Below are positions 7,236 through 38,733 of a stretch of 64,000 nt of DNA, one piece after another. Position 1 is the stretch's first letter; each line of letters opens with the position of its first letter. Source of the stretch: Candidatus Hydrogenedentota bacterium (lineage in GTDB: Bacteria; Hydrogenedentota; Hydrogenedentia; Hydrogenedentales; JAEUWI01); the NCBI GenBank assembly GCA_016791475.1, contig JAEUWI010000002.1:186001-250000 (forward strand). Reading direction: 5' to 3'. A model generated the notes under the pieces. That model was not told the DNA's origin, did not search any database, and was given only the letters and a program-made list of their open reading frames with translations. The position numbers were made by a program, and so were the translations under genes.

Positions 7236-9143
7236 TCACTTTTTGTCGTCGTCATCGACCACGGTGAAGTCGGCGTCCATCGCATCGCTGGGGCCGTCTT
7301 CGGGCGCAGCCGAGGCCTGCGGGCCGGGTGCGGCGCCTTCCGCGCCCGCCGACTTGTACATCGCCTCCGCGAGCTTGTGCGAGGCCTGCGTCAGGTTTTC
7401 CGCCGCGCGTTCGATAGCGCCGGTGTCGGTGCCTTCCAGGGCCTTCTTCACGTCCGCGATGGCGGCTTCCACATTCGTCTTGTCCGCGGCGTCTATCTTG
7501 TCCGGGTTTTCTTTCAGGGTCTTCTCGACCTGGTAGACCAGCGTATCGGCGTTGTTGCGGATCTCGATTTGCTTGCGGCGTTCCTTATCCTCGTCGGCGT
7601 GGGACTCCGCTTCGCGCACCATCTTGTTGATCTCGTCTTCCGAGAGACCGCTGGAGGTTTCGATCTTGATCTTCTGCTCCTTGCCCGTGGCCAGGTCCTT
7701 GGCGGAAGCGTGGAAAATGCCGTTCACGTCCAGGTCAAAGGACACTTCGATTTGCGGTACCCCGCGCGGCGCCGAGGGAATGCCCATGAGGTCGAAGTGG
7801 GCGAGGGTGCGGTTGTCCGCCGCCATTTCCCGCTCGCCCTGAAGCACGTGGATCGTCACCGCCGTCTGGTTGTCCGCCGCCGTGGAGAAGATCTGGCGCT
7901 TGGTCACGGGGATCGTGGTGTTGCGCTCGATGAGCTTGGTGCACACGCCGCCCAGGGTCTCGATGCCCAGGGAGAGAGGCGTCACGTCAAGCAGCAGCAC
8001 GTCCTTCACTTCGCCGGAGAGCACACCCGCCTGGATGGCGGCGCCGATGGCCACCACTTCGTCCGGGTTCACGCCGCGGTGGGGGACCTTGCCGAAAATC
8101 TGCTCGACGATCTTGCCGACGGCCGGCATGCGGGTCATGCCGCCCACGAGAATCACCTCGTTGATCTCGGAGGCGCTCAAGCCGGCATCTTCAATGGCGC
8201 GGTGGCAGGGGTTCTTGCTGCGCTGCAGCAGGTGATCCGCCAGTTGCTCGAACTTCGCCCGGGTCAGGGTGTAGTTCAGGTGCTTCGGCCCGGAGGCATC
8301 CGCCGTGATGAACGGCAGATTCACGTCGGTCGTCATGGCGCTGGAAAGTTCGCACTTCGCCTTTTCCGCGCCTTCCTTGAGTCGCTGAAGGGCCATGGCG
8401 TCTTTGCGCAGGTCAATGCCCTGTTCTTTCAGGAACTCTTCCGCGAGCCAGTCGATGATGACCTGATCGAAGTCGTCGCCGCCCAGGTGCGTGTCGCCGC
8501 TGGTGGAGAGCACTTCGAAGCTGTCGTCGCCGATGGCCAGGATGGAGATATCGAAGGTGCCGCCGCCCAAGTCGTAGACCGCGATCTTTTCGTCCTTCTT
8601 CTTCTCAAGACCATAGGCCAATGCGGCGGCCGTAGGCTCGTTGATGATGCGCAGCACTTCAAGGCCGGCAATCTTGCCCGCATCCTTGGTTGCCTGACGC
8701 TGGGCATCGTTGAAGTAGGCGGGTACGGTGATAACCGCCTGGTTCACCGAAGTACCCAGGTAGGCTTCCGCCGTCTCCTTCATTTTCTGAAGGATCATGG
8801 CGGAGATTTCCGGGGGCCGGTAGCTCGTGCCCATAATCTCCACCTGGCAGTCGCCGGAAGCGGTCTCACCCACCTTATAGGGGACAAGCTTCTCTTCCGC
8901 CTTCACTTCGCCGTGGGTGCGGCCCATGAAGCGCTTGATGGAAAAGATGGTGTTGGTCGGGTTGGTGACGGCCTGGCGCTTGGCCACGGCGCCCACGAGG
9001 CGCTCGCCGTCTTTATTGAAGGCGACAACGGACGGGGTGGTCCGGTTGCCTTCGGCATTTGCGATAACCACGGGCTCCCCACCTTCCATCACTGCCACGC
9101 AGGAGTTGGTGGTGCCCAGGTCGATTCCTATCACTTTGCCCAT
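7236..9143 (-). CDS. dnaK: Chaperone DnaK (Hsp70)
   Basis: 635 residues. The nucleotide-binding domain begins [17 protein letters not shown] and carries the conserved [15 protein letters not shown] and [10 protein letters not shown] motifs. The linker [19 protein letters not shown] leads to the substrate-binding domain, and the C-terminus ends in the typical acidic tail ([13 protein letters not shown]). It binds exposed hydrophobic segments in an ATP cycle regulated by DnaJ and GrpE. The ribosome site GGAGG lies 11 bp before the ATG. A small hairpin (9168-9184) lies in the gap to grpE. Expression should follow the CIRCE operator upstream of hrcA. Confidence 0.98.
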
Positions 9144-9238
9144 GGTGTGTTATACCTCCGCAAGTATCAGGCCCTCGGGGCCTGCTGGTTCGTTGAACGG
9201 TTGTCTATTCGCCGGGACAGTGGCCATTGCCGCGTCCG

Positions 9239-9910
9239 TCAGTCGTCTTCACTTGATCCGCCGCCGGCATCCGCGGTCACTTCTGCGGAAGCAGGGGGGC
9301 CGCTGCTCACCACCACCTGGGTGGGGCGCAGCACGAAATCGCCCAGGCGATAGCCGCGCTGGAACTCTTCCATTACCGTGTCCGCCGGATATTCCATCGA
9401 AGGCTGATGGGTCAGCGCTTCGTGCACGTTGGGGTCGAAGGGCTCGCCCTTTGCGGGGATTGGCTCCAGACCCTGCGTCGAAAGAACGCCGGCAAACTGC
9501 TTCAATATCATCTCAACGCCGAGGGCGAGGCTGCTGGTCTTGTCTTCCACATGGCTCAGCGCCCGCTCCATATTGTCCACGATGGGCAGGAGGTCGCGCA
9601 TGAGGCCCTGGGCTGCTGTTTTCCTGAGCTGCTCATTTTCCCGCGCCACGCGCCTGCGGAAGTTGTCGAACTCCGCACGGGCGCGCAGGAGCTGGTCCTG
9701 CAGGGTGTCGCGCTCCGAACGGAGCGTGGCCAGGGCCGGATCTTCCGGAGATGCCGCTGTTTCGTCCGCGTCGCTGATAACCGCATCGGGGATGTCGCTT
9801 TGATGGGCGGCATCCTCCTCGGAGACCACCGGGGTATCCTCAAGGGATTCCACAGGTGTCACCGTTTCTTCGTTCGCGTGTTGATCGTGCTTCTTCATCT
9901 TCTTTTTCAT
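9239..9910 (-). CDS. grpE: Nucleotide exchange factor GrpE
   Basis: 223 residues if translation starts at the ATG at 9910 (M-K-K-K-M-K-K-H-D-Q); a second ATG 12 bp on is possible. An open frame continues further upstream but is unlike GrpE and would run into hrcA, so it was left out. An acidic disordered N-terminus (about 1-75) precedes the long coiled coil (RSERDTLQDQLLRARAEFDNFRRR) and the C-terminal beta domain with the signature GVEMILKQF, P-x-x-G-E-P-F-D-P-N-V-H-E-A. It releases ADP from DnaK. It is the second gene of the heat-shock operon. Confidence 0.93.
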   Translation of the reverse strand: MKKKMKKHDQHANEETVTPVESLEDTPVVSEEDAAHQSDIPDAVISDADETAASPEDPALATLRSERDTLQDQLLRARAEFDNFRRRVARENEQLRKTAAQGLMRDLLPIVDNMERALSHVEDKTSSLALGVEMILKQFAGVLSTQGLEPIPAKGEPFDPNVHEALTHQPSMEYPADTVMEEFQRGYRLGDFVLRPTQVVVSSGPPASAEVTADAGGGSSEDD

Positions 9911-16946: not shown

Positions 16947-18212
16947 TCAGGAGTGCCCTGGCTCACGCTTCGGGTTCAGGGTCTTTCGGGGACCGAAATC
17001 ACGCCAATACCATAAGATGAAAGCAATGAGCAGCATGGTCGCCATTACGGATGCGCCGTGAACTCTGGCCCAATCCGATAGTTCGGGAGGCAAGCCGATT
17101 TTGGATAGCCTCGGCGCAATTTGATACGACTTATCCCCGACAAGCATGCAGGCGAACACGGTCGCGCGCCGGGTCCAACCCGGCATCGCCCAGAGTGTGA
17201 TTACAATGAAGTACTGGCCGGTCAGGTCGTAAATGTGAACTGGCATGGCGGCCATCGCGATGATCCAAACCAGTTGCTGATGCCGCAGCCGGTTGGAAAG
17301 TGTATCGTTAAGTTTTGCGTTGGCGCGAGCGACCCAGGCGGTCCCGGCCCCACCCAGAGCAATGCCCAGCAACATGAAATATTTCCCCCAGGGAGTCGCC
17401 CCAAACAGTGCGGGTACGCCGCAGTACCACGACCAACTGTTGAAATACTGGTACTTCAGATGGTTTTCCATCGATCCATCGTAGGCAGCAAAGAGGTCGG
17501 GCGTTGGTACAGCGATGAGCATGAAGAGTGATACCGAAGCACACAACATGACGCCGTAAGTGAACCATCGGACATTCCCGGAGAAGAGGATGTAGAGGAG
17601 TGGAATCAGGCTGATTTGCGGCTTGATGCTCGCCAGCAAGAATCCAAGCAAGAACAGCCATAGAATCCTGCGTTGATGCCCATACCACGCAGCCAGGCAC
17701 CCGAACACGACGATTAACGAAAGTTGCCCCTGAAATATCGCCTGATGTGCCGAACCAAGTAAAGCGCATGCGCCGGCGTACCAACCCAATGGACCTAGCA
17801 GCGGCGATTTCTCTGTACTTTCCGATCCGAGCCTTGCTGCAAGCAGGCAGATGCCCGCGGTCGCCAGGAAGCTGGTAAATCGAAACGTCCAGGCAGCAAT
17901 TTTCCACGGTAACAGGGACATGGGCAGGCTTATGACGGCAATGGTCGGCGGGTAGACGAAAGTTGCCTTGTCCATGGGCGGAACTTCAAAGAAAGATACC
18001 CATGTACGAGTATGGACTTCCTGATCGTAGGGTGACTCCCCATTCCACCAGCAAACACCCCCCGTGTACCAGAATCGGGCATCATAGTCCCATATATTCT
18101 TACCCTTGTTTCGGATCGTGCTCATGTAGAACAGGATTGCGAAGGCCAATAGCAAAAAACAGCCGGTTGCCCACCGACTTCGAAAAAGCGCGCCCCACCG
18201 TGCTTCATCCAT
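16947..18212 (-). CDS. GT87/DUF2029-type integral membrane glycosyltransferase
   Basis: 421 residues with about nine to ten hydrophobic segments. ATG at 18212 is preceded by GGGGAGG. The first periplasmic loop carries W-D-Y-D-A-R-F-W-Y-T-G-G and YDQEVHTRTW, matching the acidic first loop of polyprenol-linked mannosyltransferase-like GT-C enzymes (DUF2029). It probably transfers a sugar from a polyprenyl-phosphate donor outside the inner membrane. It lies 106 bp after the second NRPS gene on the same strand and could be part of that transcript. A glycosylated peptide or envelope acceptor is possible, but this is inference. Confidence 0.8.
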   Translation of the reverse strand: MDEARWGALFRSRWATGCFLLLAFAILFYMSTIRNKGKNIWDYDARFWYTGGVCWWNGESPYDQEVHTRTWVSFFEVPPMDKATFVYPPTIAVISLPMSLLPWKIAAWTFRFTSFLATAGICLLAARLGSESTEKSPLLGPLGWYAGACALLGSAHQAIFQGQLSLIVVFGCLAAWYGHQRRILWLFLLGFLLASIKPQISLIPLLYILFSGNVRWFTYGVMLCASVSLFMLIAVPTPDLFAAYDGSMENHLKYQYFNSWSWYCGVPALFGATPWGKYFMLLGIALGGAGTAWVARANAKLNDTLSNRLRHQQLVWIIAMAAMPVHIYDLTGQYFIVITLWAMPGWTRRATVFACMLVGDKSYQIAPRLSKIGLPPELSDWARVHGASVMATMLLIAFILWYWRDFGPRKTLNPKREPGHS

Positions 18213-18318
18213 GCATTCATCCTCCCCGGCGGCGCTTTCGCACCGCCGCCACTATGAATTGCGCTCAAGCACACCAAGCCGTCTTGCGCAGCCTCGAAGC
18301 GGGTGCCCCGTCGCGGCG

Positions 18319-21300
18319 TCAGGGTGGCGTGTCTCTCGACTCCAACGCATCCATCATGCGTTGGAGGGCTTGCCCAAGTCCAGTGGCATAGGGCGGTCGA
18401 ATCATGGCCATGTGGTTCCCTGGGACTTCCACAATGCGCACACCCTTGAGCGCAATACGCCCCCAACCATACGTGGGGTCCCGCCGTTCAGACTTGTAGG
18501 GGTTGTGTTGTGCTCTAAAGAGCGTTATTTCGGCCTGGATGGGCACCATCCTGTAGTCGCCAATTGCCTGCCGGCTGGAACGCATGACTTTTGTCCTGGA
18601 GCGGACGAGCTGATCAAGAAAAAGTCCCACCCGGCGCTCGCTGATGGTTGGCTTTGAGAGGCCCGCCTGAATAAAGTAGTACTGGACAGAGGCATCGACC
18701 CAGATCCAACGAAGGAACTCCGACAAGCGCAAGGGAGGAAGATCTGAATCTCGATACCGGCTGGAACGCCGCGCAAATAGTCCGATGCCATCACGCAGGT
18801 AGCCCACATGCAGCTTCCAGGTTCGGGCAAGAACGTGGCATCGTGCCCGAATCCGCTCGACAAGGCATTTCAGGTACAATTTGGATAGCGATGCCTTGAT
18901 TCGATAGTGATCGGTAGTTGAGCCGTCGATAACTGCGATAAAGGGGACTTCTTCGCCCGCCTCGATGAGTTGCCGTGCCATTTCATAGGCCAAGGTGCCG
19001 CCGAACGAAAATCCTCCGAGGTAGTAGGGGCCGGCGGGGCGTACCATTTTCATTCCTTCGATGCACCGTCGCGCCACCTCCTCAATTCCGTTGGGACCGC
19101 CCAAGTCGGCGTCGAGGTTGGAAAATCCCCAAAAAGGCTGATCCGAAGAAAGTGCTTCGGCGTAGGCGTCATAGATTCCACCAGAATCACCTGCACCGGG
19201 AAGGCAGAAGAATGGGATCCGGATGCCTGACTTTACTTCTCGGAGTTGAATTCCGCGCAGGGGTTCATTCTCACCCGATCTGGCTCCAAGCTTTCCCGCG
19301 AGTCCGGCGACCGTTGGATTGTCAAAAAAGTCCGACAGGGTCAATGTGCTTCCCCAACGTCGATTTACTCGGTCGAGCACTTTGACTGCAAGTAGTGAAT
19401 GGCCACCGAGCGTGAAAAAATCCGAGTGAATACCGCCGCCATGGGTATCAAGACAGGAGTGCCAGATTTCAAGAAGTACGCGCTCACACTCGTTTCGTGG
19501 GCCTGATGCTTCAACGTTAACGCTCGGTGAACTGGGCTCCGGTAGGGCTTTTCGGTCGAGTTTTCCCTGCACGGTTCGGGGGAAGCGGGCGAGGGGCACG
19601 AACTGAGCCGGGCACATATGGGCGGGCAGTTGCCCCTTGAGGAAATCGGCGAGGTGATCGGTGTTCAGGGTGTCCGGGTTCTGTGTGGCCAGGTAGGCTA
19701 CGAGTCTTGGGCCTGCGCTACCTTTCTCATTCAACAGCAACACGGCATCGTCAACGCCCGGAAACTCGCGCAGCGCGCTTTCTATTTCTCCCGGCTCGAT
19801 GCGGTAGCCGCGCAGCTTGATATAGCGGTCCATGCGGCGGACGAACTGAATGTTCCCGTCACCCTTGAAGTAGACGAGATCGCCGGTGCGGTAGAGGCGT
19901 TTGCTGTCCAGTTCCGTAAAGGGGTCGGGCACGAACTGTCGCGCGGTCAGCTCCGGGGCATTATAGTAGCCTCGGGCGAGCCCCACGCCGCCGATGTAAA
20001 GTTCGCCGGGTACGCCCACAGGCACGGGATTCATGGCGGGGTCAAGCACGTAGATGCGGGTGTTGTGGATTGCCTTGCCTATCGGGGCGTTCCCCGTCGG
20101 CCGGGGATGGGTGTCGTGCGCCTGATATAGGGTGACGTAGATCGCCGCTTCGGTCGGTCCGTAGAGGTTGAGCAGTACGAGGCCGGGTGTAGCTTCCACG
20201 ATGTCGCTCAGCAAGGCCTCGGACAGGGGCTCCACGCCGACCAGCAGCCTGCGCCACGGCAGGGGCGCGCGCCGCTGGGTTTCCAGCAACGTGGGCAGCA
20301 TGAACCCGGGGATGTACCCCGTGACAACCTCTCGTGCCCGGAGCCATTCGAGGCATGCCTCCGGATTGGCCCGCACGCGCTCGGGAATGATGTGCAGGGT
20401 GGCCCCCGCCAGAAGGCTGGTCCACGATTCATAGACGGACACGTCGAAGCTGAAGGCGGTCCAGATGCTGCACGCGTCCCCCGGCCCGATGGGAAGTCGC
20501 GACTGCAAATCCTGGTAGAGGTTGATCACGCCCTGGTGGGTGCAGCATACGCCCTTGGGCTCGCCGGTCGAACCGGAGGTGAAGATGACATAGGCCAGGT
20601 TCTCGCCGCTTGCCCCGATGCCGGGAGAGTCAGTCGCCAAATCCTCCAGCAGCCCCGGCCCATCCAGACACACGCATTCCGCCGCGACGTCGTTCAACTG
20701 GGGGGCGAGCTCGCTTTCCGTCAGGAGCAGGCGGGGCGTCAGCACGGACAGAACCCGGCCGCGCCGCGCCGGGGGATCGAGCAGATCCAGCGGCACATAG
20801 GCGGCTCCGGCTTTGAGGATGCCGATAATCGCCACCATCACCCGCACAGTCCGCCCCAGGAAGAAGGGCACGGGCTCTTCGGGCGCCACGCCCCGCGCCA
20901 GCAGGTAGTGGGCGAGCTGATTGGCTCGGGCGTTGAGTTCACCATAGGTCAGGGAAGTCTCGTCGTCCGCCACCGCGACGCAATCGGGAAGCTCCGCCGC
21001 ACGTGCCTCAAAGAGGCGGTGCAGGGACAGTGTACGGTCCAGCGGGTAGGCCGTGTCCGTCCACGTCTCCAGCAGCAGCGTCCGCTCGGGGCCGTCCACG
21101 ATCTGGAAGTCACCAAGCCGACCGCCTGGGTTCTCAAGAATGGACTTGAGCAGCGTCTCATAGCTGCGCAGCATCCGCGCCGCCGTTTCCGGCAGGAAAA
21201 GCGACGTGTTGTATTCAAGATTCAACAATAGTTCGCCATGCCGTGGCTGGACAGTAAGACTAAGGTCGAATTTTGCGCATCCATTGCTCAACTCCTCGCC

Positions 21301-24249
21301 AGAGATTTGCAGGTCGCAAAACGAAGCCTCGTAGCTTGGGGTGTTGTGCAAGACGAACATGACTTGAAAAATGGGAGCACGGCTCGGGTCCTGCTCTTCA
21401 CGCACTTCCGCGACGACTCTATCGAAGGGAAGGTCCTGATGCTCCAGCGCATCGAGTACAACAGTGTTGAGCCCTCCCAGGAGCTCGGTAAGCGTCGAGT
21501 AGTCAGCCAGCTGCGTCCGCAGCGCGACGGTGTTCACGAAAAAGCCGATCATCTCCTCCATTGCGGGATGATTACGCCCCGCGGATGCGCAACCGATGAC
21601 AATCTCCTGTTGACCGGAATAGCGATGAAGCAGCAACTGCCACGCGGCGATCAGTACCGTGAAGGTCGTCGTATGGTGGTCGAGTGCCAATTGCTCCAGC
21701 TTGGTGGTGCCGGTATCGTCCACGCGACCGCGCGCAACCGCACCTTTCCAAGTCTGACGGGGCGGACGGGGAAAATCGGTGGGTATTTCCAGTACGGGTA
21801 AGGGGGCGGCGAGCTGTTGTTTCCAATACGAAAGTTGATGCTGCAGCGCACCGGATGTGTACTGGCTGCGCTGCCAATGGCTATAGTCCGCATACTGGTA
21901 CTGCAGCGGCGCCAGAGGATGGGGAGCGTCAGAATCATATGATGTGTATGCATCTGCCAAATCTTTGAGCAGGACGCTGATGGACCACCCGTCGAACAGG
22001 GTATGATGAACAATGAGTCCAAGAAAACTATGCTTGGTTCGATGGGTGTAGTAGAAGAACTTTGCGAGGGGACCCTTTTCCAGATTCATCGGATTTCTGG
22101 CCGTCTTGCTCAGGTCTGCCCGAATCTGATTCGCAACGTCTTCATCTTCCGTTGTCGAGTTCAATTCCAAAACGTGAAAAGTCACATCGGACTCAGGCTT
22201 GACAAGCTGAAACAGCCCTTCTTCAGTTCTTTGAAAAGTGGTACGCAGAACTTCGTGCCTGGAAACGACCGCTTCCACGGACTTTCTCAGCTTTGGCAGG
22301 TCGACTGCCCCATTGATTTCGAAGAGTATTGGTATTATATAAGCTGAATTCCCCGGATCGAGATGCTCGATGAACCACAGTCTTTCTTGTGCGAAAGAAG
22401 AGGGCAGGGGCAGCGAGCGGGCGGCCAGCGGAAACTCGGTCCCGACAACAGCCTTGTCATCATGACTAATCCTGCCCAGGGATTCGGCGATACCGACGAG
22501 CGACGGGGCTTCATAGAGATTGCGCAGTGATAATCGAACACCAAACGCTTCTTGAATCCGGAGGAGAAGTCGAGTCGCCAACAGGGAGTGCCCACCCAGC
22601 GCGAAAAAATTGTCGTCAGCTCCGACTACAGGAACCTGGAGCAACTCTTGCCAAAGCGAAGCGAGCTTGCGTTCGACCTCGCTGTCTGGCGCGACGTATT
22701 CCACATTCCCGCGTTCGAACACGGGCTCGGGCAGGGCACGATAGTCGGTCTTGCCATTGCCCGTGAGGGGCATGGTGTCGATACGGATAAATGCCGAAGG
22801 AACCATGTAGTCCGGGAGCGATCGGGTCATATGCTCGCGAAGGGAGGCTACAGGTAATGCCAAGGTCGAAACGTAGTAGGCCACGAGACGGAGGTCGCCC
22901 TGGTCTGTTGTGTGTGGAAGCGCGGCGGCTCCCTGAACACCTTCAAAAGTGACCAACGCGTTCTCTATTTCGCCCAATTCCACACGAAAGCCTCTGAGCT
23001 GAACCTGCCGGTCAATGCGCCCCAAATAGACCATGTCCCCGTCAAGACGTCGAACGAGGTCACCTGACTTGTATAGTATGGCCCCATTATCCTGGGGAAA
23101 CGGACTTGAAATAAATCGCTCAGCGGTCAAGTCCGGGCGATTCATGTACCCTCTGGCGTTGCCAGCTCCGCCGACATAGAGCTCGCCTTCTTCCCCAATT
23201 TCGGCGATCAGTCCGTCGCGGGTTACGACGTGGCATGGCTGGTCCGGAATTGGCACACCAATGTAACTGGGTGTCCCAGGAACGGCCTCATGCTGACGCA
23301 CTCGACGATATGTGACATGGATGGTAGTTTCCGTGATCCCATACATGTTGATCATCTGTGGATTCTCATCGCCATGGCGCTCGAACCATGGCGCGAGGCT
23401 CTGATAGGAAAGGTTCTCTCCTCCAAAGATTACGTAGCGTAATTCCAGCGGCCTGGGCAATTCCTCGGGTTGGGCGAGAACGACGGCCTGAAGCTGTGCA
23501 AAAGCTGAGGGAGTCTGGTTCAACACAGTGACTCCCTCTTCAACAAGTAGACGGTGGAAATCGTCTGGAGAACGACTTAGCCAGTAGGGCACCACGACCA
23601 ACCGTCCGCCATGGAGGAGCGCGCCCCAGATTTCCCAGACAGAGAAATCAAAGGCAAACGAGTGGAAGAGAGTCCAGGTGTCGCGCGCTGAAAAGTCAAA
23701 CCACGCCGCCGTGGATGTGAACAGTCGCGTCACATTTCGATGCGCAATGGGAACACCCTTCGGTCTGCCCGTGGATCCGGATGTATAGATGACGTACGCG
23801 AGCTCATCGCACAGCGCCACCGGCTCGGGGTTCGTCTCCGGGTAGTCTTCCCAGGGTTGCCCCGTGTCGTCCAGCGCGATAAGGGTACTGCTATCGGTGA
23901 AGCGATGCCGCTGCGCCTCAAGGATGATGACCACCGGGCATTGCGCGTCTTCAACGATCATGCGCACGCGTTCTGGCGGATTCGAGGGATCCATGGGCAC
24001 GTAGGCTGCGCCCGCCTTGTGTACGGCCAGGATAGCTGTGACCGTATCGAAGCTTCGCTCGAGGCAGAGGCCCACCAGGGTTTCCCGTCCCACACCCCGC
24101 GCTCTCAGCAGGTGGGCGAGTTGATTCGCACGCCGGTTCAGCGCGTCGTATGTGAGTGTCTCTCCTTCGAACGTAACCGCGGGGCGATCGGGCCCTTCCA
24201 CCACCCGTTGCTCAAAGATCTCGTGTAGACACAGCATCCCTTCACGCAT
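18319..24249 (-). CDS. Bimodular nonribosomal peptide synthetase, A-PCP-C-A-PCP-TE (downstream copy)
   Basis: 1976 residues. First adenylation domain about 8-505 (YTSGSTGRPKGV near 155, catalytic Lys500 in NGK). First carrier has Ser555 in LGGHSL. Condensation domain about 612-1050 has HHTLFDGW at 748 and RHEVLRTTF, an LCL-like pattern. Second adenylation domain about 1075-1575 (FTSGSTGEPKGV, Lys1563). Second carrier Ser1618. Thioesterase about 1670-1970 with nucleophile Ser1748 in GGFSFGG, Asp1775 and a late His in VPGNH. All catalytic residues look intact, so it should make and release a dipeptide. There is no starter condensation domain, so module 1 loads a free amino acid. Specificity residues read by eye are DFWNVFMIHK (threonine-like) and DVYYLGLIYK (no match known to me). 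Confidence 0.93.
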   Translation of the reverse strand: MREGMLCLHEIFEQRVVEGPDRPAVTFEGETLTYDALNRRANQLAHLLRARGVGRETLVGLCLERSFDTVTAILAVHKAGAAYVPMDPSNPPERVRMIVEDAQCPVVIILEAQRHRFTDSSTLIALDDTGQPWEDYPETNPEPVALCDELAYVIYTSGSTGRPKGVPIAHRNVTRLFTSTAAWFDFSARDTWTLFHSFAFDFSVWEIWGALLHGGRLVVVPYWLSRSPDDFHRLLVEEGVTVLNQTPSAFAQLQAVVLAQPEELPRPLELRYVIFGGENLSYQSLAPWFERHGDENPQMINMYGITETTIHVTYRRVRQHEAVPGTPSYIGVPIPDQPCHVVTRDGLIAEIGEEGELYVGGAGNARGYMNRPDLTAERFISSPFPQDNGAILYKSGDLVRRLDGDMVYLGRIDRQVQLRGFRVELGEIENALVTFEGVQGAAALPHTTDQGDLRLVAYYVSTLALPVASLREHMTRSLPDYMVPSAFIRIDTMPLTGNGKTDYRALPEPVFERGNVEYVAPDSEVERKLASLWQELLQVPVVGADDNFFALGGHSLLATRLLLRIQEAFGVRLSLRNLYEAPSLVGIAESLGRISHDDKAVVGTEFPLAARSLPLPSSFAQERLWFIEHLDPGNSAYIIPILFEINGAVDLPKLRKSVEAVVSRHEVLRTTFQRTEEGLFQLVKPESDVTFHVLELNSTTEDEDVANQIRADLSKTARNPMNLEKGPLAKFFYYTHRTKHSFLGLIVHHTLFDGWSISVLLKDLADAYTSYDSDAPHPLAPLQYQYADYSHWQRSQYTSGALQHQLSYWKQQLAAPLPVLEIPTDFPRPPRQTWKGAVARGRVDDTGTTKLEQLALDHHTTTFTVLIAAWQLLLHRYSGQQEIVIGCASAGRNHPAMEEMIGFFVNTVALRTQLADYSTLTELLGGLNTVVLDALEHQDLPFDRVVAEVREEQDPSRAPIFQVMFVLHNTPSYEASFCDLQISGEELSNGCAKFDLSLTVQPRHGELLLNLEYNTSLFLPETAARMLRSYETLLKSILENPGGRLGDFQIVDGPERTLLLETWTDTAYPLDRTLSLHRLFEARAAELPDCVAVADDETSLTYGELNARANQLAHYLLARGVAPEEPVPFFLGRTVRVMVAIIGILKAGAAYVPLDLLDPPARRGRVLSVLTPRLLLTESELAPQLNDVAAECVCLDGPGLLEDLATDSPGIGASGENLAYVIFTSGSTGEPKGVCCTHQGVINLYQDLQSRLPIGPGDACSIWTAFSFDVSVYESWTSLLAGATLHIIPERVRANPEACLEWLRAREVVTGYIPGFMLPTLLETQRRAPLPWRRLLVGVEPLSEALLSDIVEATPGLVLLNLYGPTEAAIYVTLYQAHDTHPRPTGNAPIGKAIHNTRIYVLDPAMNPVPVGVPGELYIGGVGLARGYYNAPELTARQFVPDPFTELDSKRLYRTGDLVYFKGDGNIQFVRRMDRYIKLRGYRIEPGEIESALREFPGVDDAVLLLNEKGSAGPRLVAYLATQNPDTLNTDHLADFLKGQLPAHMCPAQFVPLARFPRTVQGKLDRKALPEPSSPSVNVEASGPRNECERVLLEIWHSCLDTHGGGIHSDFFTLGGHSLLAVKVLDRVNRRWGSTLTLSDFFDNPTVAGLAGKLGARSGENEPLRGIQLREVKSGIRIPFFCLPGAGDSGGIYDAYAEALSSDQPFWGFSNLDADLGGPNGIEEVARRCIEGMKMVRPAGPYYLGGFSFGGTLAYEMARQLIEAGEEVPFIAVIDGSTTDHYRIKASLSKLYLKCLVERIRARCHVLARTWKLHVGYLRDGIGLFARRSSRYRDSDLPPLRLSEFLRWIWVDASVQYYFIQAGLSKPTISERRVGLFLDQLVRSRTKVMRSSRQAIGDYRMVPIQAEITLFRAQHNPYKSERRDPTYGWGRIALKGVRIVEVPGNHMAMIRPPYATGLGQALQRMMDALESRDTPP

Positions 24250-24339
24250 GCTCTCCCGCTCCCAATACTTGATACAGATCTATGACACCCTGGCGGCCCC
24301 GTAATCTCCCGCGCTGCTCCCAGGATTGCCTTCATTTAT

Positions 24340-27300
24340 TCAGATGGTCTTGGATTCCAATTCATCGATGACGCGTTGCAGCGCCCTGCCCAGCCCGACC
24401 GCGTAAGGATGGCGAATGATTACCATGTGATTTCCCGGCACTTCCACCACGCGTACACCCTTGCGGGCGTAGCGGCTCCAGCCGTAGGTCGGGTCCCTGC
24501 GCTCGGATCGCCACGGGTTGTGCTCCGCGCGAAACAGGGTGATCTGCCCCTCAATGGGCTCCATCACATATTCCGCCACGGCGTTCTGGCTTGAGGCCAT
24601 GCTTCGCGCGCTGTAACGCACCAACTGGTCTTCCACCATTTTCAGGCGGCGCTCCGCAATGCTCGGCGAGGCAAGTCCCGCCTGGATCAGGTAATACTGC
24701 ACGGAGGTGTCGAAATGTATCCAGCGAAGATAGTCGCGCAGTTGCACCCGGTTTGCATGGGGAGGCTTCGCGCCGAAGGCGCGTCGGGCCAGTAGCGCCA
24801 TGCCGTCCCGGGCGTACCCAACGTGCATTTTCCAGGTGAAGGCCAGGGTGCGAAGTCGTGCCCGGACGCGCTGCACAAAGTGCCGCAAGTACTCCAGCGT
24901 CATGGCCCGTCGCACATGGTGGTGGTCGGGCGTGGCGCTGTCCAGCATGGCGATGAGGGGCACATCGTCGCCGCTTTCCAGAAGCTGGCGGGCCATCTCG
25001 TAGGCCACGATACCCCCGAAGGAATAACCGCCGATGTAGTAGGGTCCCTCGGGGCGCACCCTTTTCATTTCCTGGATACAGCGCGATGCCAGATACTCGA
25101 TCCTGGCGGGCCCTTCGTCGTCAAAATCTAGATTGGGGAATCCGTAAAAGGGTTGTGAATCCGCGAGGGCGCCGGCAAAGGTTTCATAGGATCCGCCCAC
25201 ATCACCGGCTCCCTTGAGGCAAAAGAAGGGCGTGCGCGTGCCCGATTTGATCTCCAGGAGCTCGTTCCCCCGCCGGGAAGGCGCTTTTGCCCCCTGGGCA
25301 ACACGCACCGCCAGCGCGGCGACGGTGGGGCTGTCAAAAAAGTCCGCCAGAGTTAATTCGGAAGAGAAGTACTCATTGATACGGCCGATAACCTGAATGG
25401 CGAGGAGCGAATGGCCGCCCACGGCGAAGAAGTTTACGTGCCGGCCCGAGCAATCGCTTTGCAAGCAGGCCCGCCAGATGGCCAGGATGGCGGTCTCCGT
25501 ATCGTCGAGCTCGTCGTTCGATTCGTCGTCCACGCGCGGCGCGGGTGGCGCCGGAAGCGCCCGGCGGTCCAATTTTCCCTGGACCGTGCGCGGGAAGGCG
25601 GCGAGGCGGATGTACTGGGCGGGGCGCATGTGGGCCGGCAACTGATCCTTGAGAAAAAAGTCGAGTTCCGAATCGGAGGGCGCGGTCTCCACTCCGATTG
25701 CGAGATAGGCCACGAGGCGTTGTTCCTCCGGTGAATCGTCGGGGACCAGCACCACGGCATCCCGAACCGCGGGATGGGTGCGAAGCAGGCTTTCGATCTC
25801 GCCCGGATCGATCCGGAGGCCGCGCAGCTTGATGTATCGCCCCATCCTGCGCACGAAAACGAGCTGGAGGTCCTCCCGGAGATAAACCTGATCACCGGTG
25901 CGATAGAGCCTGTCCGCGCGGCTATCGCCGAAGGGACTGGAAACGAATTGCGCCTCTGTCAGCTCGGGGTCGCGATAGTAGCCCCGTGCGAGGCCGGCTC
26001 CGCCGGCGTAGAGCTCGCCGGGAACGCCGATGGGCACCGGGTTCATGGCGGGGTCCAGCACATAAAGGTGGGTGTTCCGTATGGCCGTGCCGATGGGCGT
26101 GTTGCCCTGCGGCCGTGGCGCGCCCTGCAGCACGGGGTACAGGGTGACGTATACGGTGGCTTCGGTGGGGCCATAGGCGTTGACCATCATGAGGCCGGGC
26201 GTCGCATCGACAATGGCACCCAGCATCGATTCAGGCAGCGGTTCCACGCCCACCATCAGGCGACGCAGGGGAATGGGATCCCGCATTTGCCGGTCCCGCA
26301 GCGCGGGCAGCATGTAACCCGGAAGGTACGCCGATGCGATCGCATGCTCTTTCATCCAGGCGAGGCATTGATCGCCGTCAAGGCGAACGCGCTCCGGAAT
26401 GATGTGGAGGGCCGCGCCGCCGAGAAGTCCCGTCCAGATCTCATAGACCGTCGCGTCAAAACTGAAGGCGGCCCAGATCGAGCAGGCTTCGCCGGGTCCC
26501 ACAGGCTGGCGGTCGTGGAGATCTTCGAATAAATTCAGGACGCCGCCGTGGTTGCAGCACACGCCTTTCGGCTCACCCGTGGAGCCGGAGGTAAAGATGA
26601 TATAGGCCGCGTCGCTTCCCGCATGGGTCAGTCCGGGCGCGCCGACATCAAGAGACTCCAGTAGTTCCGCATCGTCCAGGCAAACGATTTCGACGCCCGC
26701 CGAAGCCAGACCGGCGCCCATGGACCGTTCTGAGAGTATCAGCCGGGGATTGAGCGCGCCCAGTATGCGATTGCGCCTTCCCGCGGGGTCCTGAAGATCC
26801 AGCGGGACGTAGGCCGCGCCCGCCTTGAGGATCCCGAGTACGGCCACAATTGTGTGTATGCTCCGGGAGAGAAAAAATGGAACCGGCTCGTCGCGGGCGA
26901 CACCCCGGTCGAGGAGCAGCCGGGCGAGCTGGTTGGCCCGTACTTCCAGCGCGCCGTAGGAGAGTGATGTGGTGTCATCGGTGACCGCGAGCGCTTCGGG
27001 GTGACGGTGTACGATCGATTCAAAAGCGCTGACAAGTGAGGCTGAGGGGTCCAGGTCCACGTGTGGCCCCACAAGCCCAAGGACCTGGGCCGTTTCGTCG
27101 GGGCTCAAGAGTTGAAGACGGGCCACCGCGGTCTCGGGGGCGTCAAGCAGCGCGCCAAGGAGCGTTGCATAATTGTCCAGGATTCGATTGGCGGTGGATT
27201 CACGGAAGAGCGCGGTGCAGTATTCGAGGTTCAAGACGAGCTCACCATCTCTGGGCTGGACAGACAAGGTCAAGTCGAACTTCGCCCCTTCATTGCTCAG

Positions 27301-30258
27301 TTCTTCTCCGGTCATGCGCAGACCGGAAAATTCCACCTCGTAGCGCGGCGTATTGTGGAGAACGAACATGACCTGAAAGATCGGGGAGCGGCCGGGATCC
27401 CGTTCATGTTGCACTTCGGCCACGATTTGCTCGAAGGGCACCGCCTGGTTTTCCTGGGCGGCGACCACCGCGGTCTCGACCACGTCAAGATAGTCTACAA
27501 AACGTTGGGCGGGGTCGATTGGGGTGCGGATGACCACGGTGTTTACGAAGAAGCCAATCAGCGCTTCCAGTTCCTGCTGGTTTCGGCCGGCGATGGCCGT
27601 GCCGACCACGATATCCTCCTGACCCGAATAGCGGTAAAGGAGTACATTCCAGGCGGCCGCGAGTACCGAGAAGAGCGTCTTGCCGTGACGGCGAGAAAAC
27701 CGGGCCAGCGCCTCCGACGGCGCCGCCCCCAGTGTGCGACGGGCCACCCTGCCGTGCCAGGCTTGACGCGGTGGACGCGTGAAATCCGTGGGAAACTCCA
27801 GCACCGGAAGGGGCCCCGCCAAGTGCGCCTTCCAGTAGTCCAGTTGGCGCGTGTAGTCGGCTGTTCCCACGCTTTCCCGCTGCCACGCGCTGTAGTCCGC
27901 ATACTGGATGGACGGTACCGACGGGGGGGCTTCGCCGTCAAGCGCGTAGCTGGCCGCCAGATCGTTTAAGAGCACGCTGATGGACCATCCGTCAAAGATC
28001 GCGTGGTGTATGACGAGGCCTAGACAGCCGTGACCCTCCCGGTGGGGGAAATAAACAAACCGCAGAAGCGGGCCGTTCTCCAGGGAAAAGTGCGTGGTGG
28101 ATTCCGCGCTCAACCGGTCCCGGACCTGGGCCAGAAATACTCCGTCGTCGCCGGCCTCCCCAATATCCACGGTCGAGAAAGGGAGTTCCAGTTTCGATAG
28201 AATCTTCTGGCAGGGCACCGGCCCCACAGCCGGAAAGACGGTCCGCAGAATCTCGTGTCGGTCCACTACCAAACCGATGGCCTGGTGTAGACGCGCCGCG
28301 TCCACGCGTCCATGGATCTCAAACAAGATCGGTATATTGTAGGTGGTATTTCCCGGGTCGAGTTGCTCGATGATCCACAGGCGTTCCTGCGCGAAGGACA
28401 GGGGAAGGGGCGCGCCCCGGTCGGCGGGGGCGATGGGGGGCGCGGCATCGGTCGTACCCGCGCCGAGCTTCTCCGCGATCAACGCGGCGTGGGCTCCAAT
28501 GGTGGGCGATTCCATCGCCGCACGCAGCGAAATTTCCACGCCGAATTGCTTCCGTATCCGTACCAGGAGTTGTGTAAAGAGCAGGGAGTGACCGCCCAGG
28601 TGGATGAAATTGTCCCTCGTGCCCACCCGCGGCACGCCGAGCAATTCACGCCACAGGGTGGCGAGGCGCCCTTCATTGTCATTCGCCGGGGCGACATATT
28701 CCGCATCCGACTGGATGAAGTCGGCCGGCGCGGGCAGGGCATCGTTCTCGATCTTGCCGTTGTTGTTCAATGGGAAGGCGTCGAGGTGCACGAAGGCCGA
28801 GGGGACCATATAGGGCGGAAGGGTCCGCAAGAGGTGATCCCGGAGCGTGCTCAAGGCGACGGATTCCCGAGCCAGATAGTAGGCCACCAGGCGCGGATCG
28901 CCGGGGATGTCCTCGCGTAGGCGCACAATCGCGCTGCGGATGCCGGGAGCCTCGCTGAGTTCAGCCTCGATCTCGCCGAGTTCCACGCGGAAACCCCGCA
29001 ATTGCACCTGATTGTCGTTGCGCCCAATGAATTCGAGATCGTTTTCAAACAGGCGGACCAGATCGCCCGACTTGTAGAGCGTTGGGGGGTAGGCCGAAGT
29101 ATCAAAGGGGTCGGGAAGGAAACGCTCCGCCGTCAGGTCGGGACGATTCAGATAGCCCAGACATACCCCCGGGCCGCCAATATAGAGCTCGCCCACTTCG
29201 CCTACTGCGACAGGTCGCCGATCTTCGTCGAGGATACGGAGGTACAGGTCCTTGATCGCCAATCCGATGAAGCTGGGCGTGCCGGGGGCGGCATCGGCTT
29301 TGGTTAAGAAGCGATACGTCACGAAGACGGTCGTCTCCGTAATCCCATAAACATGGACTATCCGAGGCTGTTCATCCCCGTGACGTTCGAACCAGGGCGC
29401 CAGGCTGGAGAGGGACATGTATTCCCCGCCCACCAGCACATAACGTAGCGCCAGACGGCGGGACTGTTCCAGCGGAAGGGTCTCATCGTGGTGCTGGATC
29501 TGCTTGAAGGCGGAAGGCGTCTGGTTGAGCACCGTGACCCCTTCGTCCACCAGCAACTGATAGAATTCGTCCGGGCTGCGGCTGAGCAGATAGGGGACCA
29601 TGACAATACGCCCGCCGAAGAAGAGGGCCCCCCACATTTCCGAGACCGAGAAATCGAAGGCATAGGAATGGAAAAAAGTCCAGACGTCGTCGGAGCGAAA
29701 TCCGAAATCCGGTTGCATCGCGTCAAACAGGCGGTACACATTCCAGTGGGTTACGAGCGCGCCCTTGGGCTTGCCCGTGGAGCCGGAGGTATAAATGACA
29801 TAAGCCAGATCGGAAGGGGAGACCGCCACGTCGAGATCGTCCGGCGATTCCCGTTCCCAGGGGCGCTCCGCGCCATCCAGCACCACCACCGCCGCCTCGC
29901 CATCCGAAAAACGGTCCCGATGTTCGGCGTGGGCCACCACGATGGGGCACTGGGCATCTTCGACGATCATGCGCACCCGTTCCGCGGGATAAACCGGGTC
30001 CATGGGTACATAAGCGGCGCCGGTTTTGAGCACGGCGAGAATCGCGATGACCGGATCAAAGTTGCGATCAAGGCACAGGCCCACCCGCTGGCCCGGTTTC
30101 GCCCCGCATTGGCGCAGATGGCGGGCGAGCTGGTTCGCGCGGGCGTTCAATTCGCCGTACGAAAGCGTATCCCCCGCGAAAGTCAACGCGGGCGCCCCGG
30201 GGGACGCCGCGACTTGTGCTTCAAACCGCACGTGAAGGCAATTATTCTCACGAATCAT
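24340..30258 (-). CDS. Bimodular nonribosomal peptide synthetase, A-PCP-C-A-PCP-TE (upstream copy)
   Basis: 1972 residues from the ATG at 30258; a TTG 24 bp upstream is possible. The domain order matches its neighbour throughout: adenylation (YTSGSTGKPKGA, NGK lysine), carrier (LGGHSL), condensation (HHAIFDGW), adenylation (FTSGSTGEPKGV), carrier (VGGHSL) and thioesterase (GGYSFGG). The two proteins align end to end, including the long lid of the thioesterase, so they are paralogues from a tandem duplication. Specificity residues by eye are DFSNVVVVFK and DAYYMGAVYK; both differ from the other copy, so the products should differ. The gene is 90 bp upstream of the second copy on the same strand. 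No MbtH, phosphopantetheinyl transferase, tailoring or export gene is adjacent. Confidence 0.93.
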   Translation of the reverse strand: MIRENNCLHVRFEAQVAASPGAPALTFAGDTLSYGELNARANQLARHLRQCGAKPGQRVGLCLDRNFDPVIAILAVLKTGAAYVPMDPVYPAERVRMIVEDAQCPIVVAHAEHRDRFSDGEAAVVVLDGAERPWERESPDDLDVAVSPSDLAYVIYTSGSTGKPKGALVTHWNVYRLFDAMQPDFGFRSDDVWTFFHSYAFDFSVSEMWGALFFGGRIVMVPYLLSRSPDEFYQLLVDEGVTVLNQTPSAFKQIQHHDETLPLEQSRRLALRYVLVGGEYMSLSSLAPWFERHGDEQPRIVHVYGITETTVFVTYRFLTKADAAPGTPSFIGLAIKDLYLRILDEDRRPVAVGEVGELYIGGPGVCLGYLNRPDLTAERFLPDPFDTSAYPPTLYKSGDLVRLFENDLEFIGRNDNQVQLRGFRVELGEIEAELSEAPGIRSAIVRLREDIPGDPRLVAYYLARESVALSTLRDHLLRTLPPYMVPSAFVHLDAFPLNNNGKIENDALPAPADFIQSDAEYVAPANDNEGRLATLWRELLGVPRVGTRDNFIHLGGHSLLFTQLLVRIRKQFGVEISLRAAMESPTIGAHAALIAEKLGAGTTDAAPPIAPADRGAPLPLSFAQERLWIIEQLDPGNTTYNIPILFEIHGRVDAARLHQAIGLVVDRHEILRTVFPAVGPVPCQKILSKLELPFSTVDIGEAGDDGVFLAQVRDRLSAESTTHFSLENGPLLRFVYFPHREGHGCLGLVIHHAIFDGWSISVLLNDLAASYALDGEAPPSVPSIQYADYSAWQRESVGTADYTRQLDYWKAHLAGPLPVLEFPTDFTRPPRQAWHGRVARRTLGAAPSEALARFSRRHGKTLFSVLAAAWNVLLYRYSGQEDIVVGTAIAGRNQQELEALIGFFVNTVVIRTPIDPAQRFVDYLDVVETAVVAAQENQAVPFEQIVAEVQHERDPGRSPIFQVMFVLHNTPRYEVEFSGLRMTGEELSNEGAKFDLTLSVQPRDGELVLNLEYCTALFRESTANRILDNYATLLGALLDAPETAVARLQLLSPDETAQVLGLVGPHVDLDPSASLVSAFESIVHRHPEALAVTDDTTSLSYGALEVRANQLARLLLDRGVARDEPVPFFLSRSIHTIVAVLGILKAGAAYVPLDLQDPAGRRNRILGALNPRLILSERSMGAGLASAGVEIVCLDDAELLESLDVGAPGLTHAGSDAAYIIFTSGSTGEPKGVCCNHGGVLNLFEDLHDRQPVGPGEACSIWAAFSFDATVYEIWTGLLGGAALHIIPERVRLDGDQCLAWMKEHAIASAYLPGYMLPALRDRQMRDPIPLRRLMVGVEPLPESMLGAIVDATPGLMMVNAYGPTEATVYVTLYPVLQGAPRPQGNTPIGTAIRNTHLYVLDPAMNPVPIGVPGELYAGGAGLARGYYRDPELTEAQFVSSPFGDSRADRLYRTGDQVYLREDLQLVFVRRMGRYIKLRGLRIDPGEIESLLRTHPAVRDAVVLVPDDSPEEQRLVAYLAIGVETAPSDSELDFFLKDQLPAHMRPAQYIRLAAFPRTVQGKLDRRALPAPPAPRVDDESNDELDDTETAILAIWRACLQSDCSGRHVNFFAVGGHSLLAIQVIGRINEYFSSELTLADFFDSPTVAALAVRVAQGAKAPSRRGNELLEIKSGTRTPFFCLKGAGDVGGSYETFAGALADSQPFYGFPNLDFDDEGPARIEYLASRCIQEMKRVRPEGPYYIGGYSFGGIVAYEMARQLLESGDDVPLIAMLDSATPDHHHVRRAMTLEYLRHFVQRVRARLRTLAFTWKMHVGYARDGMALLARRAFGAKPPHANRVQLRDYLRWIHFDTSVQYYLIQAGLASPSIAERRLKMVEDQLVRYSARSMASSQNAVAEYVMEPIEGQITLFRAEHNPWRSERRDPTYGWSRYARKGVRVVEVPGNHMVIIRHPYAVGLGRALQRVIDELESKTI

Positions 30259-30544: not shown

Positions 30545-31744
30545 CTATCGCCCGTTGGCGGACGGGTTCAGCGTTCGGGGGATCCGGATAGAGAATTCCG
30601 TCCCTTCCGCCTCGGAGGTGGTGAAGTAGACATGCCCACCAAGGTACTGGTTGCCCAGCAGCCGCATGCTGTAGGTGCCGATCCCCCGTCCCTGCTCACC
30701 TTTGGTGGTAAAGGAGCGCTGGAATATCTGCGCCGCCACGGACTCCGGGATATAACCTGGATTCCACACGGAGAAGATCGACGTCCCGTCCATCTGTTCA
30801 AAGCGGAGCTTCACCGTCTCGCCCTTCGCCACCGCCTCGAACGCGTTCTTCGTCATGTTGATCAGTACCCGGCGCAGAAGGCGGGCATCGCTCTCCAGCC
30901 GCGTCTCGCTGGATAGGCACAGCACGCGAAGGAACTTGCCCCGGGATGAGGGGTGATGCTCGAATACTTCGCGGACCTGCTCCAGAATCGCACCCGCGTC
31001 CACGGAGGCATAGTTCACATCCAGCTCGCCCCGTTCCGCTTTCATGAGGCATTCCTGGCCTTCCACTTCCTCGTTCAACTGGTTGGAAAGCGCCAGGATC
31101 ATGTGCGAAGCGAAGGAGGCGTCTCCCGTATCCATCAGCTCGCTGAAACCCATCAGTCCCTGGAGCACATTCCGCAGATCATGCATGAACACCTTTTCCA
31201 GCACATCCCGCCGCTTTTCCGAGCTGATGTCCTGGAGCACAAACGCCATAACCGGCTCGCCCGCGAGGGTAATTGGCGTGCAGCGCACGTGAAAATCGGC
31301 GGCCTTCAGCTCACCATCGTTTTCCATGGTCAGGGAACATTCACCTTCGGCAGGTTCGCCGCTGTTCTGGCATGAGAGAATCGTAAGTACCGCGCCGCAC
31401 TTGCCGCACTTGCGGGATGTGCCGCATCCACCGGGCCCAAGGTGGGCGTTTTCGCAATGGAGCAATTCGCCGGGCCGGAGCCCAAGCATCTCCTCCGGAC
31501 TGCGGAGGCCGAGGGCGTGGAGCAGCGTATCATTCGCGGCGATGATCTGCCGGTGCTGATCCAGGATGAGAAGGTACCCGTTCACCGCTTCCAGGACCAC
31601 CTGAACTATGGGATCGGCCAGTGCCGCGCTGGCCAGTGCCCTTAACGCTTCGGGGTCCGCTCGCCCGGCCGGCGCGTGGAGGGTGTCCATCCTGTTTCGG
31701 ACAGGCTCGGAAAGCGCGTCGGGTTGTGGCACTTTGTCGGACAT
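30545..31744 (-). CDS. PAS-domain sensor histidine kinase with cysteine cluster
   Basis: 399 residues with no membrane segments, so a cytoplasmic sensor; ATG has GGAG 6 bp before. The PAS domain (about 45-175) contains an insert with Cys97, Cys107, Cys113, Cys116 and Cys125 (CGTSRKCGKCG), a pattern that could hold zinc or an iron-sulfur cluster. The phosphorylated residue is His188 in FMHDLRN, and the ATPase part has N-box NMTKNAFEAV and G-box GRGIGTYS. No response regulator lies next to it. It is transcribed towards the NRPS genes and may control them, which is only positional inference. Confidence 0.85.
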   Translation of the reverse strand: MSDKVPQPDALSEPVRNRMDTLHAPAGRADPEALRALASAALADPIVQVVLEAVNGYLLILDQHRQIIAANDTLLHALGLRSPEEMLGLRPGELLHCENAHLGPGGCGTSRKCGKCGAVLTILSCQNSGEPAEGECSLTMENDGELKAADFHVRCTPITLAGEPVMAFVLQDISSEKRRDVLEKVFMHDLRNVLQGLMGFSELMDTGDASFASHMILALSNQLNEEVEGQECLMKAERGELDVNYASVDAGAILEQVREVFEHHPSSRGKFLRVLCLSSETRLESDARLLRRVLINMTKNAFEAVAKGETVKLRFEQMDGTSIFSVWNPGYIPESVAAQIFQRSFTTKGEQGRGIGTYSMRLLGNQYLGGHVYFTTSEAEGTEFSIRIPRTLNPSANGR

Positions 31745-37050: not shown

Positions 37051-38733
37051 CTACGTTCTTTCGGCCCACCGCGCGGCCGTCAGCCGCAGTTTCTCCACCA
37101 TGAGGGTGGCCCGATCCCGGCAGGCACGATAGATCTCCAGGGTGGTCTTCGCCAGCAGTTTGGGGTCAGCGCCGTCGAGGTTGTCGCGTTCGAATCGGGC
37201 CATCAGGATTAGGGGACGACACGGCGGATTCACCTCGCTGAAGACCCGCGCCTCTTCGTCCAGCGCCATCAACTGGGCCACCAGCGTCCGGGCCTCATCG
37301 AAGCGGTCCCGCTTGAGCGCCTCCAGCAATCGCGAAGTGACAGACTCGCCCCGGACCGAGATGGCCGCGAGTCCCTCGAAATGCTTCGCGGTCTCTTCCG
37401 CCCAGGTCGACACGATCTCCGGATCCGGACCGCCGTAGTGGCGGAGCATCTGGTCGAGACTTTCCAATTCGCCCTCGGGCGTGCCCGTGCGGGAAAGATG
37501 GGCAACCCACATGGCGCGGTAGGCAATCCGCATGAAATCCCGCTCGTCCATGGCGCGCTGAATAACCGGGTAATACTCTAGAAATCCGTCGGGTGCGAAG
37601 CGCGTAATGTAAAGGTCGACATTGTCCAGCGCTCCCTCGTCCGCAATCGGGGGCAGAGGGCGATCCTGCCCGTGATGGCGCGCGTAGTCGATGGCGGCGA
37701 GGACCTGATTCGCCTTGATCAACTCGCGCTCCTCTTTGCCTGAGGGCACATAGTCCGAGCGGCCGAGATTGGTGCGGCGCGCCTCGATGGCGCAATGGCC
37801 CTCGCCATAGGGGCCGGTTTCACGGTAATGGACGTTGCCGACGGAGACCAGGGTAATCGGGCAGCCCACCGACGCGGCGATGTGCATTGTGCCCGTGTCG
37901 TTGGTAACCAGAATCGTGGCGCGCTTGAGCAGGGCGGCCACCTGCGCCACGGAGGTCTTCCCGAAGAGGTGGGTGGCCAGGCCGGGGGCGAAGGACTCAA
38001 AGCGATCGCCCAGGGGCTGCTCGGACTGCACGCCGAGAAGAAATACCTTCGCCTGGTGCCGCTCGACAAGCAGACGCCCTAGAGAAGCGAAATTCTCGAT
38101 GGCCCAGCGCTTGCCCTCTTCGCTGGCGCCAAGCTGGAAACAGGCCACGTAGTCGTCGCCCTTCACGCCGTGCTCTGCGAGCAGCGCCTCGGCAAATTGG
38201 TGGTCCTCGTCGTGGAGATTAAAGTGAAGTTCTCGCGAGGGAGGCGCATCTTCCACGATGTTGCGCGTGATATCGCAGAGATTCAGATCGTTGTATTCGC
38301 GGCTGAATACGCTGGTGAAGAAATAGGTCGTCCACCGGCCCCGGAGGATAAACTGCCAGTCGTCGCCCAGGTGCGCGCCGTAGACTTCGGGAATCTCGGC
38401 GATCTTGATCAGCATGGCGGAACTGACGCTGTGGGTCACATTGTAGGCGATGTCAAAGTTGCACGCCTTGATGGCCTGAATGCGCTTGTCGGTAAGCTGG
38501 TAGGCCTCCAGCAACTTGTTCGAATCATCCGCTACGAGCCTCCGGTACAGCTCGTCCTCATCGTAGATCATCACGTCGTTGATGTCGTGATTGCGATCCG
38601 CAATCGCCCGGCCCATCTGACGCACCAGCAGCGTGATGTGGGCGTCGGGATGCTTCCGGCGCACCATGTGTATCAGGGGCGTCGTTTGAAGCACATCGCC
38701 CAGTCGTGTGGTCTGTACAATAAGGATCCGCAT
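37051..38733 (-). CDS. GT9 (heptosyltransferase-like) glycosyltransferase with C-terminal extension
   Basis: 560 residues. The first about 350 are GT9: MRILIVQTTRLGDVLQTTPLI at the N-terminus, then FQLGASEEGKRWAIENFASL and TILVTNDTGTMHIAASVGCP, the ADP-heptose binding region of WaaC/WaaF relatives. The remaining about 200 residues are helical, not part of GT9 and unrecognised. The start overlaps the stop of the upstream CgeB-type gene by one base (TGATG). Being in the fliW-csrA gene run, it probably glycosylates flagellin or a surface glycan rather than core LPS. Confidence 0.85.
   Translation of the reverse strand: MRILIVQTTRLGDVLQTTPLIHMVRRKHPDAHITLLVRQMGRAIADRNHDINDVMIYDEDELYRRLVADDSNKLLEAYQLTDKRIQAIKACNFDIAYNVTHSVSSAMLIKIAEIPEVYGAHLGDDWQFILRGRWTTYFFTSVFSREYNDLNLCDITRNIVEDAPPSRELHFNLHDEDHQFAEALLAEHGVKGDDYVACFQLGASEEGKRWAIENFASLGRLLVERHQAKVFLLGVQSEQPLGDRFESFAPGLATHLFGKTSVAQVAALLKRATILVTNDTGTMHIAASVGCPITLVSVGNVHYRETGPYGEGHCAIEARRTNLGRSDYVPSGKEERELIKANQVLAAIDYARHHGQDRPLPPIADEGALDNVDLYITRFAPDGFLEYYPVIQRAMDERDFMRIAYRAMWVAHLSRTGTPEGELESLDQMLRHYGGPDPEIVSTWAEETAKHFEGLAAISVRGESVTSRLLEALKRDRFDEARTLVAQLMALDEEARVFSEVNPPCRPLILMARFERDNLDGADPKLLAKTTLEIYRACRDRATLMVEKLRLTAARWAERT

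Follow-up and report, generated by a model that had tools for sequence, protein, structure and literature searches.

About 13 kb in the genome of a Candidatus Hydrogenedentota bacterium carries three genes, two for nonribosomal peptide synthetases (NRPSs) and one for a GT87 membrane glycosyltransferase, which we tentatively read as a compact biosynthetic cluster with two independent dipeptide lines and one dedicated glycosyltransferase acting on the peptide. The host genome is a metagenome-assembled genome (7.7 Mb, 529 contigs, 96% complete, 3.7% contamination), and the DNA analyzed, here called the window, is a stretch of 64,000 nucleotides from it. All three genes lie on the minus strand in the transcription order P0002 (30258 or 30282 to 24340), P0001 (24249 to 18319), and P0003 (18212 to 16947). 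The features of the locus are as follows, with the basis for each in parentheses.

24340 to 30258, minus strand: NRPS P0002, A-PCP-C-A-PCP-TE, upstream synthetase gene, which might instead start at the TTG at 30282 (Pfam)
28725 to 30225, minus strand: P0002 A1, code DFSNLGVVFK, in a clade of Thr-type A domains, Trp239 replaced by Ser; borders approximate (code, tree)
27082 to 28407, minus strand: P0002 C domain, HHAIFDG, sister to C2 of the third NRPS of the genome (Pfam, motif, tree)
25567 to 27054, minus strand: P0002 A2, code DAYYMGAVYK (code, tree)
24343 to 25251, minus strand: P0002 TE, alpha/beta-hydrolase with a long helical lid (motif, model, structure search)
18319 to 24249, minus strand: NRPS P0001, A-PCP-C-A-PCP-TE, downstream gene (Pfam)
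22732 to 24216, minus strand: P0001 A1, code DFWNIGMIHK, Thr-like (code extraction)
21073 to 22404, minus strand: P0001 C domain, HHTLFDG (Pfam, motif)
19555 to 21042, minus strand: P0001 A2, code DVYYLGLIYK, specificity not assignable (code extraction)
18322 to 19236, minus strand: P0001 TE, Ser-Asp-His triad kept (motif alignment)
16947 to 18212, minus strand: P0003, GT87 membrane glycosyltransferase (GT-C fold in a low-confidence model) of an NRPS-linked clade (Pfam, homologue search, model with PimE 9dm5 as best PDB match)
30545 to 31744, minus strand: PAS/HATPase sensor kinase between the NRPS genes and mutL (Pfam)

Both synthetases are modular type I NRPSs with a terminal thioesterase. 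In line with the initial annotation, Pfam places AMP-binding and PP-binding domains twice, and Condensation and Thioesterase domains once, in each of the two synthetases and a GT87 domain in P0003; all three reading frames are uninterrupted. The further claims of that annotation, that the synthetases align end to end, keep their core catalytic residues, and differ in specificity in all four A domains, were likewise borne out: P0001 and P0002 are 55% identical over their whole length, both contain HHxxxDG, GGHSL (twice), GxSxGG, and the TE Asp and His, Lys517 is present in all A domains, and the four ten-residue codes are distinct. Neither protein contains a starter C domain and the whole host assembly contains no MbtH gene, again in agreement with the annotation. 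No exporter gene was found at the locus. An Sfp-type phosphopantetheinyl transferase, predicted from a single ACPS-family gene elsewhere in the host genome (254 amino acids, with Sfp-like length and motifs), is available to activate the PCPs.

Each synthetase is best read as a self-contained dipeptide line. Both begin with an A domain, such that nothing upstream can feed them, and both end in an intact TE. For the same reasons, neither should be able to take the chain of the other through a C domain. Thus, the earlier proposal of two release points and two related dipeptides stands as the best reading of the domain order, although its description of the genes as tandem paralogs needs qualification (see below). 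Initiation resembles that of the tyrocidine and gramicidin systems, in which an A-PCP start lacks a starter C domain, as in tyrocidine synthetase 1, and the best full-length sequence match in the PDB is linear gramicidin synthetase LgrA. Those systems, however, feed long multiprotein lines with one terminal release domain, whereas P0001 and P0002 each have their own TE. Another parallel is CorA of Corallococcus, the coralinone synthetase, a single-gene, A-first, dipeptide-forming line with TE release (PMC10979478). CorA, however, is A-T-C-A-T-KS-AT-ACP-TE and thus includes a polyketide module (PMC10979478), whereas the locus here is purely NRPS, in two copies, and accompanied by a glycosyltransferase.

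Alternatively, both synthetases might contribute to one product if their TEs ligated or oligomerized the two dipeptides, yielding a macrocyclic tetrapeptide or a depsipeptide closed through the Thr hydroxyl. The TE lid is long, and the TE model (pLDDT 82) matches Pks13, NRPS4, NocB, Vlm2, and others about equally, a set that mixes hydrolytic with cyclizing or acyl-transferring enzymes. Moreover, a related genome would make a longer chain with a single enzyme at the same site (see below). The start of P0001, however, has no C domain that could accept the P0002 dipeptide, the structural matches do not distinguish the type of TE, and we know of no heteroligating TE pair. We consider a joint product rather unlikely. 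As matches of both kinds were found, we abandoned any choice between hydrolysis and cyclization from the TE fold.

The locus appears to be a complete version of an NRPS site that varies in content within the genus. An operon of P0002, P0001, and the GT87 gene is plausible because the gaps are short (90 bases between P0002 and P0001, 106 between P0001 and the GT87 gene) and neither shows a terminator-like site. The ATG at 30258 suits the N terminus common to both synthetases better than does the TTG at 30282. Comparison was made with three genomes of the same genus (G001, G002, and G003) and one of another genus (G005). In G001, both flanks are syntenic with the window, with ApbC (83%) and UDG (74%) on one side and MutL (74%) and MiaA (65 to 70%) on the other, and between them lies a single trimodular synthetase of 3,056 amino acids (A-PCP-C-A-PCP-C-A-PCP-TE) without a GT87 gene or sensor kinase. 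The kinase is a possible regulator. The G002 synthetase is truncated by the contig end and likewise begins beside mutL. In G003, an A-PCP-C-A-PCP-TE gene with its 5' end missing is followed by a GT87 gene (51% to P0003), and G005 encodes a complete 2,000-amino-acid A-PCP-C-A-PCP-TE synthetase followed by a GT87 protein (33% to P0003) at a different place. Retention of the flanks in G001, together with the other NRPS content in G001 and G002, is what leads us to regard the site as variable and the window version as complete, and the housekeeping neighbors on both sides rule out a larger cluster of which the two genes would be only a part.

Could the locus be an assembly chimera of unrelated NRPS contigs? 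The number of contigs and level of contamination of the host assembly give the idea some footing, but both flanks are orthologous to and syntenic with those of G001, base composition is even across the joint, and the domains of P0001 and P0002 group with those of congeners. We consider a chimera barely credible.

How the pair arose seems to be more complex than duplication. The initial annotation treated the two synthetases as tandem paralogs, and their TE domains are indeed sisters (98/96), but TE is the only domain for which P0001 and P0002 are mutual closest relatives. In the A1 tree, P0001 groups with G003 and P0002 with G001 and G002, and sisterhood is rejected (p-AU, 2e-8). In the A2 tree, P0002 groups with A2 of the synthetase on host contig C1, with sisterhood again rejected (p-AU, 0.0013), and in the C tree it groups with C2 of that synthetase, with sisterhood weakly rejected (p-AU, 0.029). 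Consistent with the trees, A2 of P0002 shares 76% identity with the contig C1 synthetase but 60% with P0001, whereas its TE shares 32% with the former and 58% with the latter, and the change of closest partner falls near the PCP1/C and PCP2/TE borders. A plain recent tandem duplication, with A domains drifting and one copy redundant, could account for the sister TEs and the identity from end to end, but the per-domain trees and AU tests, together with the closeness of the P0002 C-A2 part to the contig C1 enzyme, rule it out as a plain account and leave it highly improbable. Instead, the two genes form a domain mosaic. Only the TEs are sisters and the C-A part of P0002 is closest to the third synthetase of the genome, which is most simply explained by an exchange of that part between synthetases of this genome lineage. 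In this, the pair offers a case from nature in which a C-A part passed between synthetases of the same genome while the thioesterase was retained.

The third synthetase (L045:7427-14851, host contig C1) is C-A-PCP-C-A-PCP-TE, and its A1 code, DVENIGAITK, is also that of a G005 synthetase. A frame of 612 amino acids that follows it was considered as a second glycosyltransferase and dropped, as it lacks predicted membrane segments and matches no family.

The first modules likely select hydroxy amino acids. The code of P0001 A1 is the textbook Thr code save one conservative change, and more generally the Ser and Thr assignments of first-module codes follow the generally known Stachelhaus codes. 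Among GT87-linked synthetases with a readable first-module code, the codes are Thr in P0001, Ser in G048 (DVWHVSLVDK) and in G052 (DVWHISLVDK, on contigs C257 and C694, which are assumed to be neighbors), and Thr clade by tree in G005 (DMWNTGKVHK). Because these are Ser, Thr, or Thr clade, a hydroxyl acceptor is likely in each GT87-linked line, but the association is only a hint since Thr-type codes also occur in lines lacking GT87 (G001 and G021). For the second modules, the code of P0002 A2 is identical to those of A2 of the contig C1 synthetase and A3 of G001. To our knowledge, neither DVYYLGLIYK nor DAYYMGAVYK matches a known code, and a literature search for the two found no paper; substrate assignment was dropped for both. 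We note that in G003 (L040:117-3546, contig C623), the start of a Thr-clade NRPS (DLWCVAMIHK) is immediately preceded by genes for a class III aminotransferase and a Gfo/Idh/MocA oxidoreductase, possibly precursor genes.

The glycosyltransferase is probably part of the NRPS pathway. P0003 matches PF09594 at 41.7 bits against a curated cutoff of 25, and that family occurs at 35 places in 21 of the 68 genomes of the Hydrogenedentota phylum set, all 68 of which belong to one order. P0003-like proteins occur in five of these genomes (the host genome G000, G003, G005, G048, and G052), and all five adjoin an NRPS gene, downstream of it in G000, G003, and G005 and upstream in G048 and G052, where C-A-PCP-initiated synthetases follow. 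By comparison with all Condensation-domain places, none of the other 30 GT87 places neighbors an NRPS. The exact count gives a p value of 1/C(35,5), or 3e-6, which is optimistic because G000/G003 and G048/G052 are congener pairs, leaving about three independent lineages. Beyond the phylum, three weak further P0003-like matches came from a survey of 386 genomes, of which about 320 belong to other phyla, and none of the three lies near NRPS domains. No further P0003-like proteins emerged when 84,980 species were scanned with sequence patterns, all those found being from Candidatus Hydrogenedentota genomes, but the scan would miss distant homologs because its patterns were derived from the five clade sequences.

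We consider the phylum-wide link of this GT87 clade to NRPS genes to be the main new lead. The initial annotation was correct that a GT87 gene is present but missed that the gene is probably part of the pathway rather than an oddity, as its clade occurs only beside NRPS genes in this phylum. Of the pair plus GT87, whose conservation the annotation had suggested checking, only the GT87-NRPS linkage was found in relatives. The tandem pair was not seen, G001 having one trimodular enzyme and the G002 and G003 contigs ending inside genes, and P0001 as a query against named genomes gave no match. A second kind of NRPS-glycosyltransferase pairing occurs in the genus: in G002 (L038:9919-17230, contig C312), a gap of about 10 bases separates a Thr-Val-type A-PCP-C-A-PCP-TE synthetase from a family 2 glycosyltransferase frame downstream of it.

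What the glycosyltransferase might do can be approached by comparison with the mycobacterial enzyme PimE, which is classed in GT87. The low-confidence P0003 model (pLDDT 60) suggests a GT-C fold, and its top PDB match in Foldseek is PimE (9dm5; TM, 0.61 to 0.66; E value, 1.6e-3), although the two proteins are too dissimilar in sequence for a profile match, a P0003 profile having found none among PDB sequences. Asp42, Asp44, Gln163, Lys197, and His326 are invariant in the clade. By position only, Asp42/Asp44, Gln163, Lys197, and His326 are candidates for the roles of PimE D58, Q163, K195, and H321/H322, respectively, where D58 is the catalytic base and K195 and H322 lie at the donor phosphate (PMC12041525). 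The two systems differ in that PimE acts on a phosphatidylinositol glycolipid.

GT-C polyprenyl-phosphomannose enzymes are known from NRPS clusters (PMC4635501). Ram29 of the ramoplanin cluster is a GT-C enzyme that acts on a nonribosomal peptide at a proposed extracytoplasmic site, and it and its relatives MppH/I, Tcp15, and Dbv20 are, like P0003, membrane glycosyltransferases encoded with NRPS genes, for which polyprenyl phosphomannose is the proposed donor to an exported peptide (PMC4635501). Ram29-type clusters, however, make large lipo- or glycopeptides and contain many tailoring genes, whereas the locus here has two bimodular lines, and P0003 is a GT87-type enzyme that lacks an extracytoplasmic domain like the large one described at the C terminus of Ram29.

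Together, these comparisons suggest a pathway. The first A domain would load PCP1 with a hydroxy amino acid, Thr in P0001 and, less certainly, a residue related to Thr in P0002. The C domain would join this residue to the one on PCP2, and the TE of each synthetase would release its own dipeptide, free or cyclized. After export, the GT87 enzyme would use a polyprenyl-phosphate donor to attach a sugar, with the Thr hydroxyl as the most likely acceptor, in the manner of Ram29 in ramoplanin biosynthesis. By this analogy, a PimE-like enzyme probably O-glycosylates the exported product of the Thr-first synthetase P0001.

Alternatively, the two dipeptides might be released as diketopiperazines or free while the glycosyltransferase acts elsewhere, for example on an envelope glycan, its position reflecting operon history. 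The usual targets of GT87 enzymes such as PimE are envelope lipids (PMC12041525), the locus lacks a dedicated exporter, and congener G001 keeps the NRPS without GT87. An unrelated role fits less well, however, with a clade found only beside NRPS genes, at different loci and on either side of them, in a phylum whose other 30 GT87 matches are not NRPS linked, and we regard it as somewhat unlikely. Glycosylation of the peptide is the reading that we retain.

Perhaps the locus is one instance of something broader. We speculate, with some doubt, that the phylum makes its own class of very short Ser/Thr-initiated peptides that are O-glycosylated extracellularly by a dedicated clade of PimE-like GT87 enzymes, and that here a single glycosyltransferase serves two dipeptide lines that arose through module exchange. 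A literature search found no natural product of the uncultured phylum Hydrogenedentota. If the GT87 enzyme does glycosylate a dipeptide, tailoring of a nonribosomal product by a polyprenyl-phosphate-dependent transferase would here be found in a very small system, one that would also provide a handle for peptide glycosylation. Because it is small and bounded by housekeeping genes, it could be expressed whole.

Three observations elsewhere in the window deserve mention. A 725-amino-acid frame at 7176 to 9353 on the plus strand matches PF10712, "NAD-specific glutamate dehydrogenase," at 4e-166 in Pfam, but is the antisense of an intact dnaK gene beside dnaJ (7236 to 9143, minus strand; HSP70, 1e-265), and PF10712 looks like a spurious antisense-of-dnaK family. 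At 37051 to 44121 on the minus strand lies a row of glycosyltransferase genes, probably for cell-surface glycan synthesis, that encode a GT9-like protein and two Glyco_trans_1_2/DUF3880 proteins, one fused to a methyltransferase and TPRs. Finally, a 944-amino-acid protein encoded at 58585 to 61419 on the minus strand combines ECF-like sigma-70 regions 2 and 4 with carboxypeptidase-regulatory-like repeats, an unusual fusion.
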